Source: Candidatus Methanoperedens sp. (GTDB taxonomy: Archaea; Halobacteriota; Methanosarcinia; Methanosarcinales; Methanoperedenaceae). Taken from it: 64,000 nt of DNA. The translations under genes were made by a program, and so were the position numbers. The stretch is from assembly GCA_027460525.1 (NCBI GenBank), contig JAPZAS010000021.1, positions 1 through 64,000 on the forward strand, read 5' to 3'. This document shows positions 30,816 to 36,017 of this stretch, piece by piece (position 1 is the first letter of the stretch; every line of letters starts with the position of its first letter). The notes under the pieces are model-generated. The model saw nothing but the letters and a program-made list of their open reading frames with translations, had not been told where the DNA came from and ran no database searches.

Positions 30816-31529
30816 TTAAATCGAAAGGAAGGAAATGATTTTTTCTATATCAACATTCTTTTCCACTAACGATACAATATTTCCGTGACTTCCGCCCTCC
30901 ACATTTATTTTCGTATCGTGTGGGATAATCCCAAGTATATGGACTCCGGTAAGTTCTGTTATTATCCCTGGGTTTGTTTCCTCGACTTTTCCACCCCGGT
31001 AATTGTTTACAATCACCCCGATCACAGGTATCCCCCAGTTCTTTGCATGCTCGATGGTAAGAAAGGTATGATTTATTGTACCAAGTCCTGCGCGGGAAAC
31101 GATTATAGCAGGAGTGCCAAGGCTGGTTATCAGGTCTGAAATGAGGATTCTATTTTTCAAGGGCACTGCAATTCCACCCGCGCCTTCCACAATCACGATG
31201 TCATGGCGCCTCCCAAGTTCCTGATAAGCATTGTTGATGAGTTCGAGGTCCACAGGCTTTCCCTCAATTTCTGCAGCAACGCTTGGCGCCAGCGCCTCTT
31301 TCAAAAGTACGGGGCATACCAATTCTGGCTCATCGCACGTGTCCAGAACTTTCATCAGGAACTCTGCATCCTGGGAATACAGCCTGCCGTTTCTTTCCAT
31401 GGCGCCGCTCTGTACGGGTTTCATCACCCCGACGCTGTACCCCCTCTTTTCCAAAGCCCCAGCCAGTCCGGCAGCCACAGCGGTTTTCCCGACGCCGGTG
31501 TCGGTTCCTGTTATAAATATCCCTGTCAT
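30816..31529 (-). CDS. bioD: Dethiobiotin synthetase
   Basis: 237 residues with the P-loop GTDTGVGKTAVAAGLAGAL, the MKPVQSGA substrate motif and VEGAGGIAVPL. It closes the ureido ring of dethiobiotin from 7,8-diaminopelargonate, CO2 and ATP. Last gene of the biotin operon; it overlaps bioF by four bases. Confidence 0.95.
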   Translation of the reverse strand: MTGIFITGTDTGVGKTAVAAGLAGALEKRGYSVGVMKPVQSGAMERNGRLYSQDAEFLMKVLDTCDEPELVCPVLLKEALAPSVAAEIEGKPVDLELINNAYQELGRRHDIVIVEGAGGIAVPLKNRILISDLITSLGTPAIIVSRAGLGTINHTFLTIEHAKNWGIPVIGVIVNNYRGGKVEETNPGIITELTGVHILGIIPHDTKINVEGGSHGNIVSLVEKNVDIEKIISFLSI

Positions 31530-32683
31530 GAAAGATCGAACTTTTCCTTGATTATGGAAATGGCAAGAAGTGCCTCTGCTATATCCACTTCGCTATGGGT
31601 AGCCATGAGTGAAGTCCTGATCCGTCCTTTGCCCTGTGGCACGGTTGGAGGGCGTATCCCCTGTGCGAAAACGCCGAGCCTCAGAAGCTCGCTGGCTGCT
31701 TTTACAGTCTCCTCTGTACCCCCTGTCATGAGAGGAATAATCTGGGTCTCGCTCGTAATGGTAATTCCCATGTCTTTGAGCCCTTTTTTATAGATAGCGG
31801 TATTCCTCCAGAGTTTTTCAGCGGGATTCTCCTCCTCGATGACATCTATGGCAGCCTTTGCAGCAGCAACAGCAGGCGGGGGGAGTGCGGTTGAATAGAT
31901 GAACGCTCTTGCCTTGTTTCGAAGATAATCGATCAATTCACCACTTCCTGCCACGTAGCCGCCGATGCTTGCAAGCGCTTTGCTTAATGTCCCCATGTTT
32001 ATATCCACATCCACGTTAAAATAATCTGGCGTGCCCCTTTTGTGTTTTCCAAGAACGCCCGTGGCATGGGCATCGTCCACCATGACCATAGCATCGTATT
32101 TTTTCGCAAGCTCGGAAATCTCTGGCAAAGGAGCTACATCGCCATCCATGCTGAAGATGCCGTCTGTGACTATCAGTTTTTTTTTGTGTTTCGAATTGCG
32201 AAGCTGGTTTTCTACGTATGCCGTATCCTTGTGGGGATAGACCGCCACGTCGGCTCGGCTCAGCCTGCATCCATCGATTATGCTTGCATGGTTTCGCTCA
32301 TCGCTCAGGATAAGGTCGCCTTTTCCTGCTATCGCCGCGATCGTTCCGATATTTGCCATGTATCCCGTGCTGAAAACGATGGCATCCTCCGTGCCTTTGA
32401 ATTTCGCTATTCTCTCCTCCAGCCTGCCGTACAGCTCATGGTTGCCGGTGGTAAGGCGCGAGCCTCCAGAACCTGTGCCGTAGTGCTCCACTGCCTCAAA
32501 GGCTGCCTTTTTTACTTTGGGGTGATTGGTTAATCCCAGGTAGTTGTTGGAGGAGAGAAGTATGAGTTCCTTTCCATCTTGTCTTATCCTTGGCGTCTGC
32601 GCGCTTTCGATTGTGCTGAGGCTTCGATACAATCCCTTCTTTTTTAGCTCCTCAAGCTCGCCTGCAAGCCACTTCATCTTCAT
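31526..32683 (-). CDS. bioF: 8-Amino-7-oxononanoate synthase
   Basis: 385 residues of the alpha-oxoamine synthase family: SSNNYLGLTNHPKV, GTGSGGSRLTTGNHELY, DDAHATGVLGKHKRG and NMGTLSKALASIGGY, where the Lys binds PLP. It condenses pimeloyl-CoA with alanine to give the amino-oxononanoate used by the next enzyme. It overlaps bioU and bioD by four bases each. Confidence 0.94.
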   Translation of the reverse strand: MKMKWLAGELEELKKKGLYRSLSTIESAQTPRIRQDGKELILLSSNNYLGLTNHPKVKKAAFEAVEHYGTGSGGSRLTTGNHELYGRLEERIAKFKGTEDAIVFSTGYMANIGTIAAIAGKGDLILSDERNHASIIDGCRLSRADVAVYPHKDTAYVENQLRNSKHKKKLIVTDGIFSMDGDVAPLPEISELAKKYDAMVMVDDAHATGVLGKHKRGTPDYFNVDVDINMGTLSKALASIGGYVAGSGELIDYLRNKARAFIYSTALPPPAVAAAKAAIDVIEEENPAEKLWRNTAIYKKGLKDMGITITSETQIIPLMTGGTEETVKAASELLRLGVFAQGIRPPTVPQGKGRIRTSLMATHSEVDIAEALLAISIIKEKFDLS

Positions 32684-33681
32684 TGCACAAATCTCGGCAT
32701 AATCTCAGCCGACCCGAAAACCCCGTATATGCCGCGGAGATGGAACTCAAGTCCTGCTTTCATCCAGCCAAGGGCTGGTCCTACGACGTTGGCAGCCATC
32801 GTGCTCTCATCCCCGAGAATGAACCTGTGGCTTGAAATAGCGCCGTCAAAAGTCCTGCCCGTCAGGGTCATTGTGGTGCTTACAGGCTTTCTGGGATTCC
32901 GCGTATCCACCACGCCGCCGACTTTTACTTTTTCCCGCGATACAATTCCTGCCCTCTCAAGAAGTACATCATCCGCATGCTCCATACTGCCAAGATGGAG
33001 TATGCCTCTTCTCCTGTCGAGTTCTTCTTTAATCTGTGCGCAGGTCATGCTTGCTGCTTTTTCAAGGTTGAATCCCTCAAGGTGCGCAATATCCTCGCGT
33101 ATCGTTGCGCGATACGATTCCCAGTTATCTACTCCCACGCCGAAGTTGATGTCCACGCTCATCACTTCCATAAAGGAATTTGCCGCTATCGCAGCGGCGC
33201 ACGTAAGCAAGCCTGGCGTGGCGCCCGCACCTGTGATGTATGTGATTCCGGCGTCCTTTAACTGGCTGTCCAGCCCGAAAATCATCTCCACTGCCTGCGA
33301 GCGTTTCAGTGCGTCCACCATTACACCGTTGTAACCGTGCCCGGCAAACCTCAACGCAACCTGAGGGATAAACTCGTTTGTGAGGTTTGGAAGAGCAATA
33401 AAAATACCGTCAAAACCATCTGAATTTTTAATCATTGAGCCTATTGCATCGTCAGTTTTCTCGCCGATATCCCCTGGTTTTTTATTCTCAAGGCTCTTCG
33501 GGTCTATGCCATCAGGATCAATCAGGCAGCCGCTTTTATCTGCTATGGCTACAAGTTTCATCTCCTTTTTCCCTGCAATCATTTTTGCAGCCGCCATTCC
33601 AAGACCGCCTGCTCCCAGAACTGCGATATTAGCTTTACTTGCGGCTCTTCCTCTTGTTTTCATTATCTGCTGCTGTTTCAT
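32680..33681 (-). CDS. bioU: BioU-like suicide enzyme, (S)-8-amino-7-oxononanoate to diaminopelargonate
   Basis: 333 residues of the saccharopine-dehydrogenase-like fold, with the Rossmann NIAVLGAGGLGMAAAKMI at the N-terminus. Known BioU proteins of cyanobacteria and haloarchaea give up an active-site lysine amino group to make 7,8-diaminopelargonate in place of the transaminase BioA. Lys126 in VMVDALKRSQA lies where BioU uses its donor lysine (Lys124 in Synechocystis). The gene is in the middle of the biotin operon, between bioW and bioF, and no bioA is present. The functional call is therefore from context plus fold and remains an inference. Confidence 0.78.
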   Translation of the reverse strand: MKQQQIMKTRGRAASKANIAVLGAGGLGMAAAKMIAGKKEMKLVAIADKSGCLIDPDGIDPKSLENKKPGDIGEKTDDAIGSMIKNSDGFDGIFIALPNLTNEFIPQVALRFAGHGYNGVMVDALKRSQAVEMIFGLDSQLKDAGITYITGAGATPGLLTCAAAIAANSFMEVMSVDINFGVGVDNWESYRATIREDIAHLEGFNLEKAASMTCAQIKEELDRRRGILHLGSMEHADDVLLERAGIVSREKVKVGGVVDTRNPRKPVSTTMTLTGRTFDGAISSHRFILGDESTMAANVVGPALGWMKAGLEFHLRGIYGVFGSAEIMPRFVQ

Positions 33682-33690
33682 ATTATCCTC

Positions 33691-34467
33691 CTATATTTTT
33701 ACGGTAAGCTCCTTTATTCCGCCGAACTTATTGACAAGGACAGGAGCTTTCTCCATTTCATGAATGTAACTATCAAGGTCTATACCGTCCACGAAAAACA
33801 CCCTCCCCCCGCGGGAATCTCCTTCGGGTTTCAGATGCGGGATGCGCACATAGCCGATCTTCGAAGCAACATAACCTGCTGTATAGGACGGGTCATCAGA
33901 CCAGCACAGTTCGGCAATGTTCCCATTTACCGAGGCAACTTTTGTGGCTAGCACAAGCGCCTCGCTAATATAAGCGTAATATGATGACAATCCGGCATCC
34001 TTGATAGAACGCGCAAGTTCTGCAGAGGCTTCCTCTGTAATATCCATGCGTGATGCTCTTATGCCTCGATATTTGTCAGGCTCAAGCCGCTCCCCGCTCA
34101 TATTCATTATCATTGCCCCCCTCATGCTCTCCCCGCCAGCAGCACCGTTTCCAAGGAGGGTTATTGCCTTTTCTATGCAGAAAAGAGGTATCCCAAGAGA
34201 TAACAACAGCTTTCCTGCAAGTGCCCTGCCTTCTGCAGCATTCCTGACATGCGTTAAAATAAGCGGTAACGAGGTTATGTTTTTGATGGGAATCTTTAAT
34301 TCTTCAAGAGATATATTTATAAAATCCGGTTTTCCTTTTTCGTGAGAAAGAGCCCTGTCTATCAGCGACTGCGCAGCAGAAAATATTTCATGGTCACCGG
34401 TTATCCGCTCCGCCCCAGATATGTGTTTTCCATCTTTTTCCGCCCTCATTCTAACGCTGTACATCAA
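33691..34467 (-). CDS. bioW: 6-Carboxyhexanoate-CoA ligase (pimeloyl-CoA synthetase)
   Basis: 258 residues. YSVRMRAEKDGKHISGAERI is the BioW signature, RGIRASRMDIT and GRVFFVDGIDLDSYIHEME are other conserved stretches. It activates free pimelate with CoA and ATP to start biotin synthesis, so this organism must have a source of pimelate. It overlaps bioB by four bases and is nine bases from bioU. Confidence 0.93.
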   Translation of the reverse strand: MMYSVRMRAEKDGKHISGAERITGDHEIFSAAQSLIDRALSHEKGKPDFINISLEELKIPIKNITSLPLILTHVRNAAEGRALAGKLLLSLGIPLFCIEKAITLLGNGAAGGESMRGAMIMNMSGERLEPDKYRGIRASRMDITEEASAELARSIKDAGLSSYYAYISEALVLATKVASVNGNIAELCWSDDPSYTAGYVASKIGYVRIPHLKPEGDSRGGRVFFVDGIDLDSYIHEMEKAPVLVNKFGGIKELTVKI

Positions 34468-35432
34468 ACGCCTCCGGGAACAAGTCCAAGGTCACGAATC
34501 ATACGGATATCCTCACTGGGAACTCTGCCCGGGGTTGTGAGATAGTTGCCCAAGAGCAACCCGTTGGCGCCGGAAAGCAGGCAGAGGCACTGGAGGTCTC
34601 TCAGGTTCTTTTCCCTGCCACCGGCCACACGTATATTTTTTTGAGGAAGGACGAGGCGGAAAACCGCGATTGTTTTGAGCACTTCCATCGGCGTTATCGG
34701 CACTGCGCAGGAAAGAGGTGTCCCAGCTATGGGATTAAGGATATTGATTGGTATGGAATCGACATCTATATCACGAAGCATGAAGCCAAGCTCGATTCGG
34801 TCGCGTATGGATTCTCCCATCCCTATTATCCCGCCGCAACAGACCTCAAGCCCCGCATTTTTTGCTATATTTACAGTTCGTATTTTTTCATCGTATGAGT
34901 GCGTGGTGCAGATATTCCTGAAAAAGCTCTCGGAAGTCTCAAGATTGTGATGTATCCTTATAACGCCTGCGTTTTTAAGCGCGTTAGCACTTTCTTCGGT
35001 GAGCATCCCGAGGGAAACGCAGATGGATAATCTTGTCTCTTTCCGTATTCTCCTTATGGCGCTCGATATACGTTCAAAATCCTGGTCGTCAGCCTCTTTT
35101 CCGCTTGTAACAATGCAGAATCTCGCCGCACCTTCGTCCTGCATCATCAAAGCCATATCAAGAATTTCCTCCTCATCCATCAGGGGATGAGGGGTTACCT
35201 CAGCGTCGTTATGTGCAGACTGGGCGCAGAATTTGCAATCCTCGGGGCAAAGACCGCACTTTGCATTGACAATCGAGCAGAGGTCAACCCTGTCGCCGAG
35301 CTTTGAGCGCACGCTGTTGGCTAAGGAAAAAAGCTCCATGCATTCGCTGCCATGGAGATTCATGAGCGCCACGGCTTCTGGAAAGTTTATGGGGTCGCCG
35401 TTTTCGAGTTTTGATCTGACGTTTTGGAGCAT
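34464..35432 (-). CDS. bioB: Biotin synthase
   Basis: 322 residues of the radical SAM family; CGLCPEDCKFCAQS gives the C-x3-C-x2-C cluster ligands, and the downstream Cys residues (FCIVTSG, EVCCGGIIGMGE) and the Arg in RVAGGREKNL are in place for the second cluster. It inserts sulfur into dethiobiotin. First gene of bioB-W-U-F-D, with a BirA-type operator directly upstream. No clear ribosome-binding site precedes the ATG, so translation may be leaderless. Confidence 0.96.
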   Translation of the reverse strand: MLQNVRSKLENGDPINFPEAVALMNLHGSECMELFSLANSVRSKLGDRVDLCSIVNAKCGLCPEDCKFCAQSAHNDAEVTPHPLMDEEEILDMALMMQDEGAARFCIVTSGKEADDQDFERISSAIRRIRKETRLSICVSLGMLTEESANALKNAGVIRIHHNLETSESFFRNICTTHSYDEKIRTVNIAKNAGLEVCCGGIIGMGESIRDRIELGFMLRDIDVDSIPINILNPIAGTPLSCAVPITPMEVLKTIAVFRLVLPQKNIRVAGGREKNLRDLQCLCLLSGANGLLLGNYLTTPGRVPSEDIRMIRDLGLVPGGV

Positions 35433-35439
35433 AATTTTG

Positions 35440-35472
35440 ATTGTGAACCTGTTTTACCTGATGGTTAACAAT
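35440..35472 (-). promoter_or_regulatory. BirA-type biotin operator upstream of bioB
   Basis: ATTGTGAACC (35440-35449), 13 bases, then GGTTAACAAT (35463-35472). This equals the bacterial BirA operator half-sites and the 13-base spacing of the Bacillus operator with one mismatch. It ends eight bases before the bioB ATG, and an AT-rich AAATTTTAAG-like TATA element lies at about 35475-35486. Bound BirA would sit on the transcription start. Confidence 0.75.
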
Positions 35473-35549
35473 GGCTTAAAATTTGCGATTTGAGATTGTT
35501 TTCTTTCGTGGGATATCTTTATCTGAAATGATTCAGTATCTTCCTGCAA

Positions 35550-36017
35550 ATGCCCTACATCGCCGACTCCTCCCTTTTCATCATCAGAAAGCGCCTCGAA
35601 GGGAGCGTAATAACCGTTCCTTCGGTGGTTCTCGAACTTAGGGATGAGAATGCCCGAACAACGCTGGAATTGATGAACGTGAGTATTGAGCCTCCACTTC
35701 CAGGTTTCATAAAAGAGGTAAGGTCAAAAGCTGGCATCACAAAGGACAGCGAGGAACTTTCAGCTACCGACATCGATATTCTTGCAAAGGCGCTTGAATA
35801 TTCAAGCCGTGGGGGAATCCTGGTCACGGATGATTTTGCAATCCAGAACATCGCGCTCCAGCTCGGGATTAAAGTAACGCCGGCAGGAGGAAGGAAGATA
35901 AAAGACGTCCTGCTCTGGGAAAAGCGGTGCATCGGATGCAAGAGGCGTTTCCCGCAGGGGGATGTATGCCCAGTGTGCGGCTCGCCTTTGAAAAAAATCA
36001 GGAAAAGGAAAGTTTGA
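35550..36017 (+). CDS. nob1: rRNA maturation endonuclease Nob1
   Basis: 155 residues. An N-terminal PIN domain (IADSSLFI with the first Asp, SATDIDILAKALEY, VTDDFAIQNIA) is followed by a zinc ribbon at the C-terminus (CIGCKRRFPQGDVCPVCGSPL). This is the archaeal Nob1 layout and length. It trims the 3' end of 16S rRNA. Divergent from bioB, with a 117-base shared upstream region. Confidence 0.92.
   Translation: MPYIADSSLFIIRKRLEGSVITVPSVVLELRDENARTTLELMNVSIEPPLPGFIKEVRSKAGITKDSEELSATDIDILAKALEYSSRGGILVTDDFAIQNIALQLGIKVTPAGGRKIKDVLLWEKRCIGCKRRFPQGDVCPVCGSPLKKIRKRKV

Follow-up and report, generated by a model that had tools for sequence, protein, structure and literature searches.

In Escherichia coli, the winged-helix protein BirA acts at bioO, an operator that forms an inverted repeat across the region where transcription starts, lies between divergent promoters and has a longer spacer than the site described here. 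The BirA of Bacillus subtilis is a Group II ligase that binds three operators, for which it needs biotin and ATP (PMC4016012). The BirA regulon and its signal were reported for Eubacteria and Archaea by Rodionov, Mironov and Gelfand (2002, Genome Res 12:1507), and the consensus quoted from their study in PMC545781 is TTGTAAACC-[N14/15]-GGTTTACAA. Here we analyzed 64,000 nucleotides of contig JAPZAS010000021.1 of Candidatus Methanoperedens sp. (hereafter, the window), in which an inverted repeat lies directly upstream of the biotin synthase gene bioB. This repeat is very probably the operator of the genome's own bifunctional BirA, through which a five-gene biotin operon would be repressed. In the literature searched we found no earlier report of a biotin operator in Methanoperedens and nothing on biotin synthesis in Methanoperedens or on a biotin transporter of Methanothrix.

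An inverted repeat upstream of bioB resembles the BirA operator

The sequence at 35440-35472 reads ATTGTGAACC-TGTTTTACCTGAT-GGTTAACAAT, with the core operator TTGTGAACC-TGTTTTACCTGAT-GGTTAACAA placed 8 bp upstream of the bioB start:

35441..35471, no strand assigned: predicted BirA operator, inverted repeat TTGTGAACC-N13-GGTTAACAA; single match, conserved in relatives

The half-sites are inverted copies of the form TTGTwAACC / GGTTwACAA and match the published consensus in all but the fifth base of each, a variable position. The pattern TTGTNAACC-N{12,17}-GGTTNACAA occurred once in the window and in none of 100 dinucleotide shuffles, and its one exact match in the whole 2.44 Mb genome was the window site itself. 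On each strand of this genome, 10 looser sites with 2-3 mismatches stood against 6 for a reversed-pattern control, about the same frequency, and a larger regulon was therefore rejected; the best of them, with 2 mismatches, falls inside a mutS-like gene.

The initial annotation had proposed looking for the same operator at other biotin or bioY genes, and the search was fruitful. Our sample of the family comprised 34 genomes, 15 of them with bioB and together holding 17 bioB genes. An operator with at most 2 mismatches was found 2-12 bp before the start of all 17, with a spacer of 13 bp in 14/17 and 14 bp in 3/17, and at every gene the site scored better than all 300 shuffled versions of its upstream sequence. 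Among the 14 distinct bioB sites the mean frequency of the commonest base was 0.92 in the half-sites and 0.64 in the spacer. Two genomes (G004 and G030; L043, L046, L052, L053) have two bioB copies each, every copy with its own operator. The operator also preceded 21/23 family bioY genes; in the window the gene behind it serves biotin synthesis (bioB), in relatives synthesis or transport (bioB and bioY). G007 and G023 lack bioB; in them the PIN gene known from the window adjoins a bioY whose operator is perfect, and different biotin genes therefore share neighborhood and operator. In each of the five genomes where bioB and bioY both have a site, both spacers are 13 bp, which in this small sample is suggestive of a spacing that follows the resident BirA.

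A bifunctional BirA accompanies the operator

The genome encodes one BirA-type ligase (G000:C2:24212-25195), adjoining pycA. It combines an N-terminal winged helix-turn-helix (HTH_11, 60 bits) with the catalytic biotin protein ligase (BPL) domain (BPL_LplA_LipB, 83 bits) and BPL_C (43 bits), all above cut-off, which is the domain set of a Group II, bifunctional BirA and bears out the DNA-binding domain predicted in the initial annotation. The protein scored 55 bits against birA_repr_reg, under the strict cut-off of 70, and aligned with solved chains of bifunctional BirA over residues 10 to 322, helix-turn-helix included. Neither of the observations named beforehand as fatal to the proposal, a BirA without a DNA-binding domain and a site not conserved in relatives, was made. 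Since the BirA repressor domain model was found in 146/151 high-quality genomes of the archaeal class, a bifunctional BirA is the norm in these archaea. To describe the operator as bacterial-type in an archaeon therefore makes too much of the surprise, the archaeal BirA signal having been known since 2002.

Two further ideas were discarded. Autoregulation of birA was rejected, as no operator was found upstream of 25 family birA genes and birA sits behind pycA, and a BirA residue or linker change behind 13-bp versus 14-bp spacers was sought by eye in aligned N-termini, with no clear difference.

Exact operators were present in 36/238 genomes of the class, many before bioY, compared with 1 for the reversed pattern. 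Elsewhere in the class, bioY is preceded by sites with spacers of 13 to 16 bp, and among 20 further bioY upstream regions, mostly of family f5, 16 had a site with at most 2 mismatches and none did in the reversed control. The bioB genes of G162, G056 and G084 have an operator with one mismatch. Site and repressor domain also fail together: in five f2 genomes with bioB no operator was found and the BirA repressor domain was undetected, as judged by the repressor-domain model. Family f2 thus serves as a natural negative control and supports the link between operator and BirA. Three genomes of genus g18 carry exact operators (L113, L114, L115); at L115 the next downstream gene, about 360 bp away, encodes a radical SAM protein with distant similarity to BioB/LipS2. 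The site at L110 lies within a heterodisulfide-reductase-like gene and was taken as chance.

Counter-evidence and alternative explanations

Several observations weigh against an operator read by BirA. The window spacer is 13 bp, at least 1 bp short of the 14 or 15 bp of the consensus. The match in spacing claimed in the initial annotation is thus off by 1 bp, while that of the half-sites held apart from the fifth base. Because the published consensus itself permits two lengths, we treated the 13-bp spacer as a non-essential spacing variant. No recognizable operator was found at the bioY genes L106 (G002) and L093 (G027), nor upstream of bioB in G167; in G080, where the operator was likewise sought upstream, the bioB match begins at profile position 53. 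Conversely, L109 (G044) has an exact site with no obvious target gene, in a genome that yielded no match for the BirA repressor domain, for BioY or for BioB. G002 and G027 also have bioB, and the bioY copy of G002 is without the first positions of the domain.

BirA binding at this site is read from sequence, which leaves some room for another regulator that binds the palindrome and happens to control biotin genes. We consider this improbable, given that, apart from the variable fifth base, the half-sites are those of the published BirA consensus, that nearly every genome of the class has the repressor domain, and that f2, where the domain was undetected, has bioB without the site. Still less probable is a relic, that is, a site that came along with a bacterial biotin operon and goes unread by the resident BirA. 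Such sites do occur at some bacterial relatives of bioB (L028 and L031 among them, with 14-bp spacers), and the nearest bioB matches outside Methanoperedens include bacteria. Against a relic, the half-sites are kept at 70-80% BioB identity although the spacer varies, and the 13-bp form also stands before unrelated bioY genes, with equal spacers at both genes in each of the five two-site genomes. A chance inverted repeat has practically nothing to recommend it: we found no supporting point, and both the shuffles (0/100) and the conservation at bioB (17/17) speak against it. An operator of the resident BirA remains by far the best explanation.

The biotin operon and its proposed repression

The genes and signals around the operator are as follows:

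34464..35432, minus strand: bioB, biotin synthase, at the head of the operon (TIGR00433, E 4e-123)
33691..34467, minus strand: bioW, 6-carboxyhexanoate-CoA ligase (NF002360 and PF03744 above cut-off)
32680..33681, minus strand: bioU homologue, BioA-replacing enzyme (NF047886, E 3e-129, below curated cut-off; PDB 6ir4, Slr0355, E 4.6e-110)
31526..32683, minus strand: bioF, 8-amino-7-oxononanoate synthase (TIGR00858 above cut-off)
30816..31529, minus strand: bioD, dethiobiotin synthase (TIGR00347 above cut-off)
35475..35487, minus strand: putative B recognition element (BRE)/TATA box CGCAAATTTTAAG, directly upstream of the operator; AT-rich, fixed position
35550..36017, plus strand: divergent PIN-domain gene (PF17146), outside the regulon, bounding the promoter region on its far side

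The five genes bioB-bioW-bioU-bioF-bioD share the minus strand, with ends overlapping or nearly abutting, and the same order was found in two named Methanoperedens contigs (L012, L032). The closest BioB matches, at about 80% identity, were from Candidatus Methanoperedens, including M. nitroreducens Mnv1. The bioU product matched Synechocystis Slr0355 over its full length and scored 431 bits against NF047886 (curated cut-off 600). It retains the lysine of the VDALKR motif aligned to Slr0355, which we take to be the catalytic (suicidal) lysine of BioU, and as judged from sequence this homologue may stand in for BioA within an archaeal biotin operon. When archaeal biotin genes were surveyed in 2018, complete sets were recorded in Methanococcales only and, for Methanosarcinales, one bioB and no bioW, bioF, bioA or bioD (PMC6138646).

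In family bioB and bioY promoters alike, a few bases separate the end of the BRE/TATA-like box from the operator downstream of it. At the distance customary in archaea between TATA box and start, transcription would begin inside the operator, at about 35453-35458, and since the box abuts the operator, BirA would cover this predicted start. We infer the binding of BirA, its dependence on biotin and the position of the start, and propose that, under ample biotin, BirA charged with biotinyl-5'-AMP would dimerize and its two winged helices would bind the two half-sites. The bound dimer would cover the DNA from TATA box to start codon, predicted transcription start included, and would block initiation of bioB-bioW-bioU-bioF-bioD. 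When biotin is scarce, BirA would be busy with ligation and the operon could be expressed.

A candidate biotin importer in family f7

The operator can also be used as a tracer across the class, where it leads to an unrecognized candidate biotin transporter in acetate-using methanogens. Family f7 (genomes G188-G237), a sister family that is presumably Methanotrichaceae, encodes a PF00474 sodium:solute symporter of about 445 aa in 46/50 genomes (loci L128-L135, L139, L176 and others; one copy is at G234:C1:363812-365077). No f7 genome yielded BioY or BioB. An operator with at most 3 mismatches preceded the symporter at 42 of the 44 loci with upstream DNA at hand, compared with 0 for the reversed control. 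In genus g35 (L164-L169) the symporter operator has TCGT/ACGA in place of TTGT/ACAA in both half-sites, or nearly so; a paired change is expected of a site bound by a dimer and suggests altered BirA specificity.

In the PDB the symporter matched a putative sodium:solute symporter as well as sodium-sugar, choline and iodide transporters. Biotin is carried by SMVT, the multivitamin transporter of animals and a member of the same superfamily. Because the operator precedes the gene and the alternatives BioY and BioB were not found, we favor, with some reserve, the view that this dedicated symporter imports biotin in a sodium-coupled manner. If so, it would add a new kind of transporter to the archaeal BirA regulon and supply the biotin uptake route that is missing from these major acetate-using methanogens. 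The interest of the window site is moderate and lies chiefly in this lead, which is outside the window.

Comparison with known BirA systems

Like E. coli BirA-bioO, the Methanoperedens system pairs a winged-helix BirA with an inverted repeat over the (predicted) start region; unlike bioO, the repeat covers a single promoter. With B. subtilis BirA (PMC4016012) it shares a bifunctional ligase and repressor with several biotin-related targets, here recognized by sequence, and presumably also the need for biotin and ATP in binding, whereas the promoter here is of the archaeal TATA/transcription factor B type. Compared with the 2002 regulon description, the spacer is mostly 13 bp rather than 14 or 15, the operon contains bioU and not bioA, and the group itself, Methanoperedens, was unavailable at that time. 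The comparative evidence that Methanoperedens regulates its unusual bioBWUFD operon by a BirA switch is strong, and the site is a well-supported new example of a phenomenon already known in archaea since 2002.
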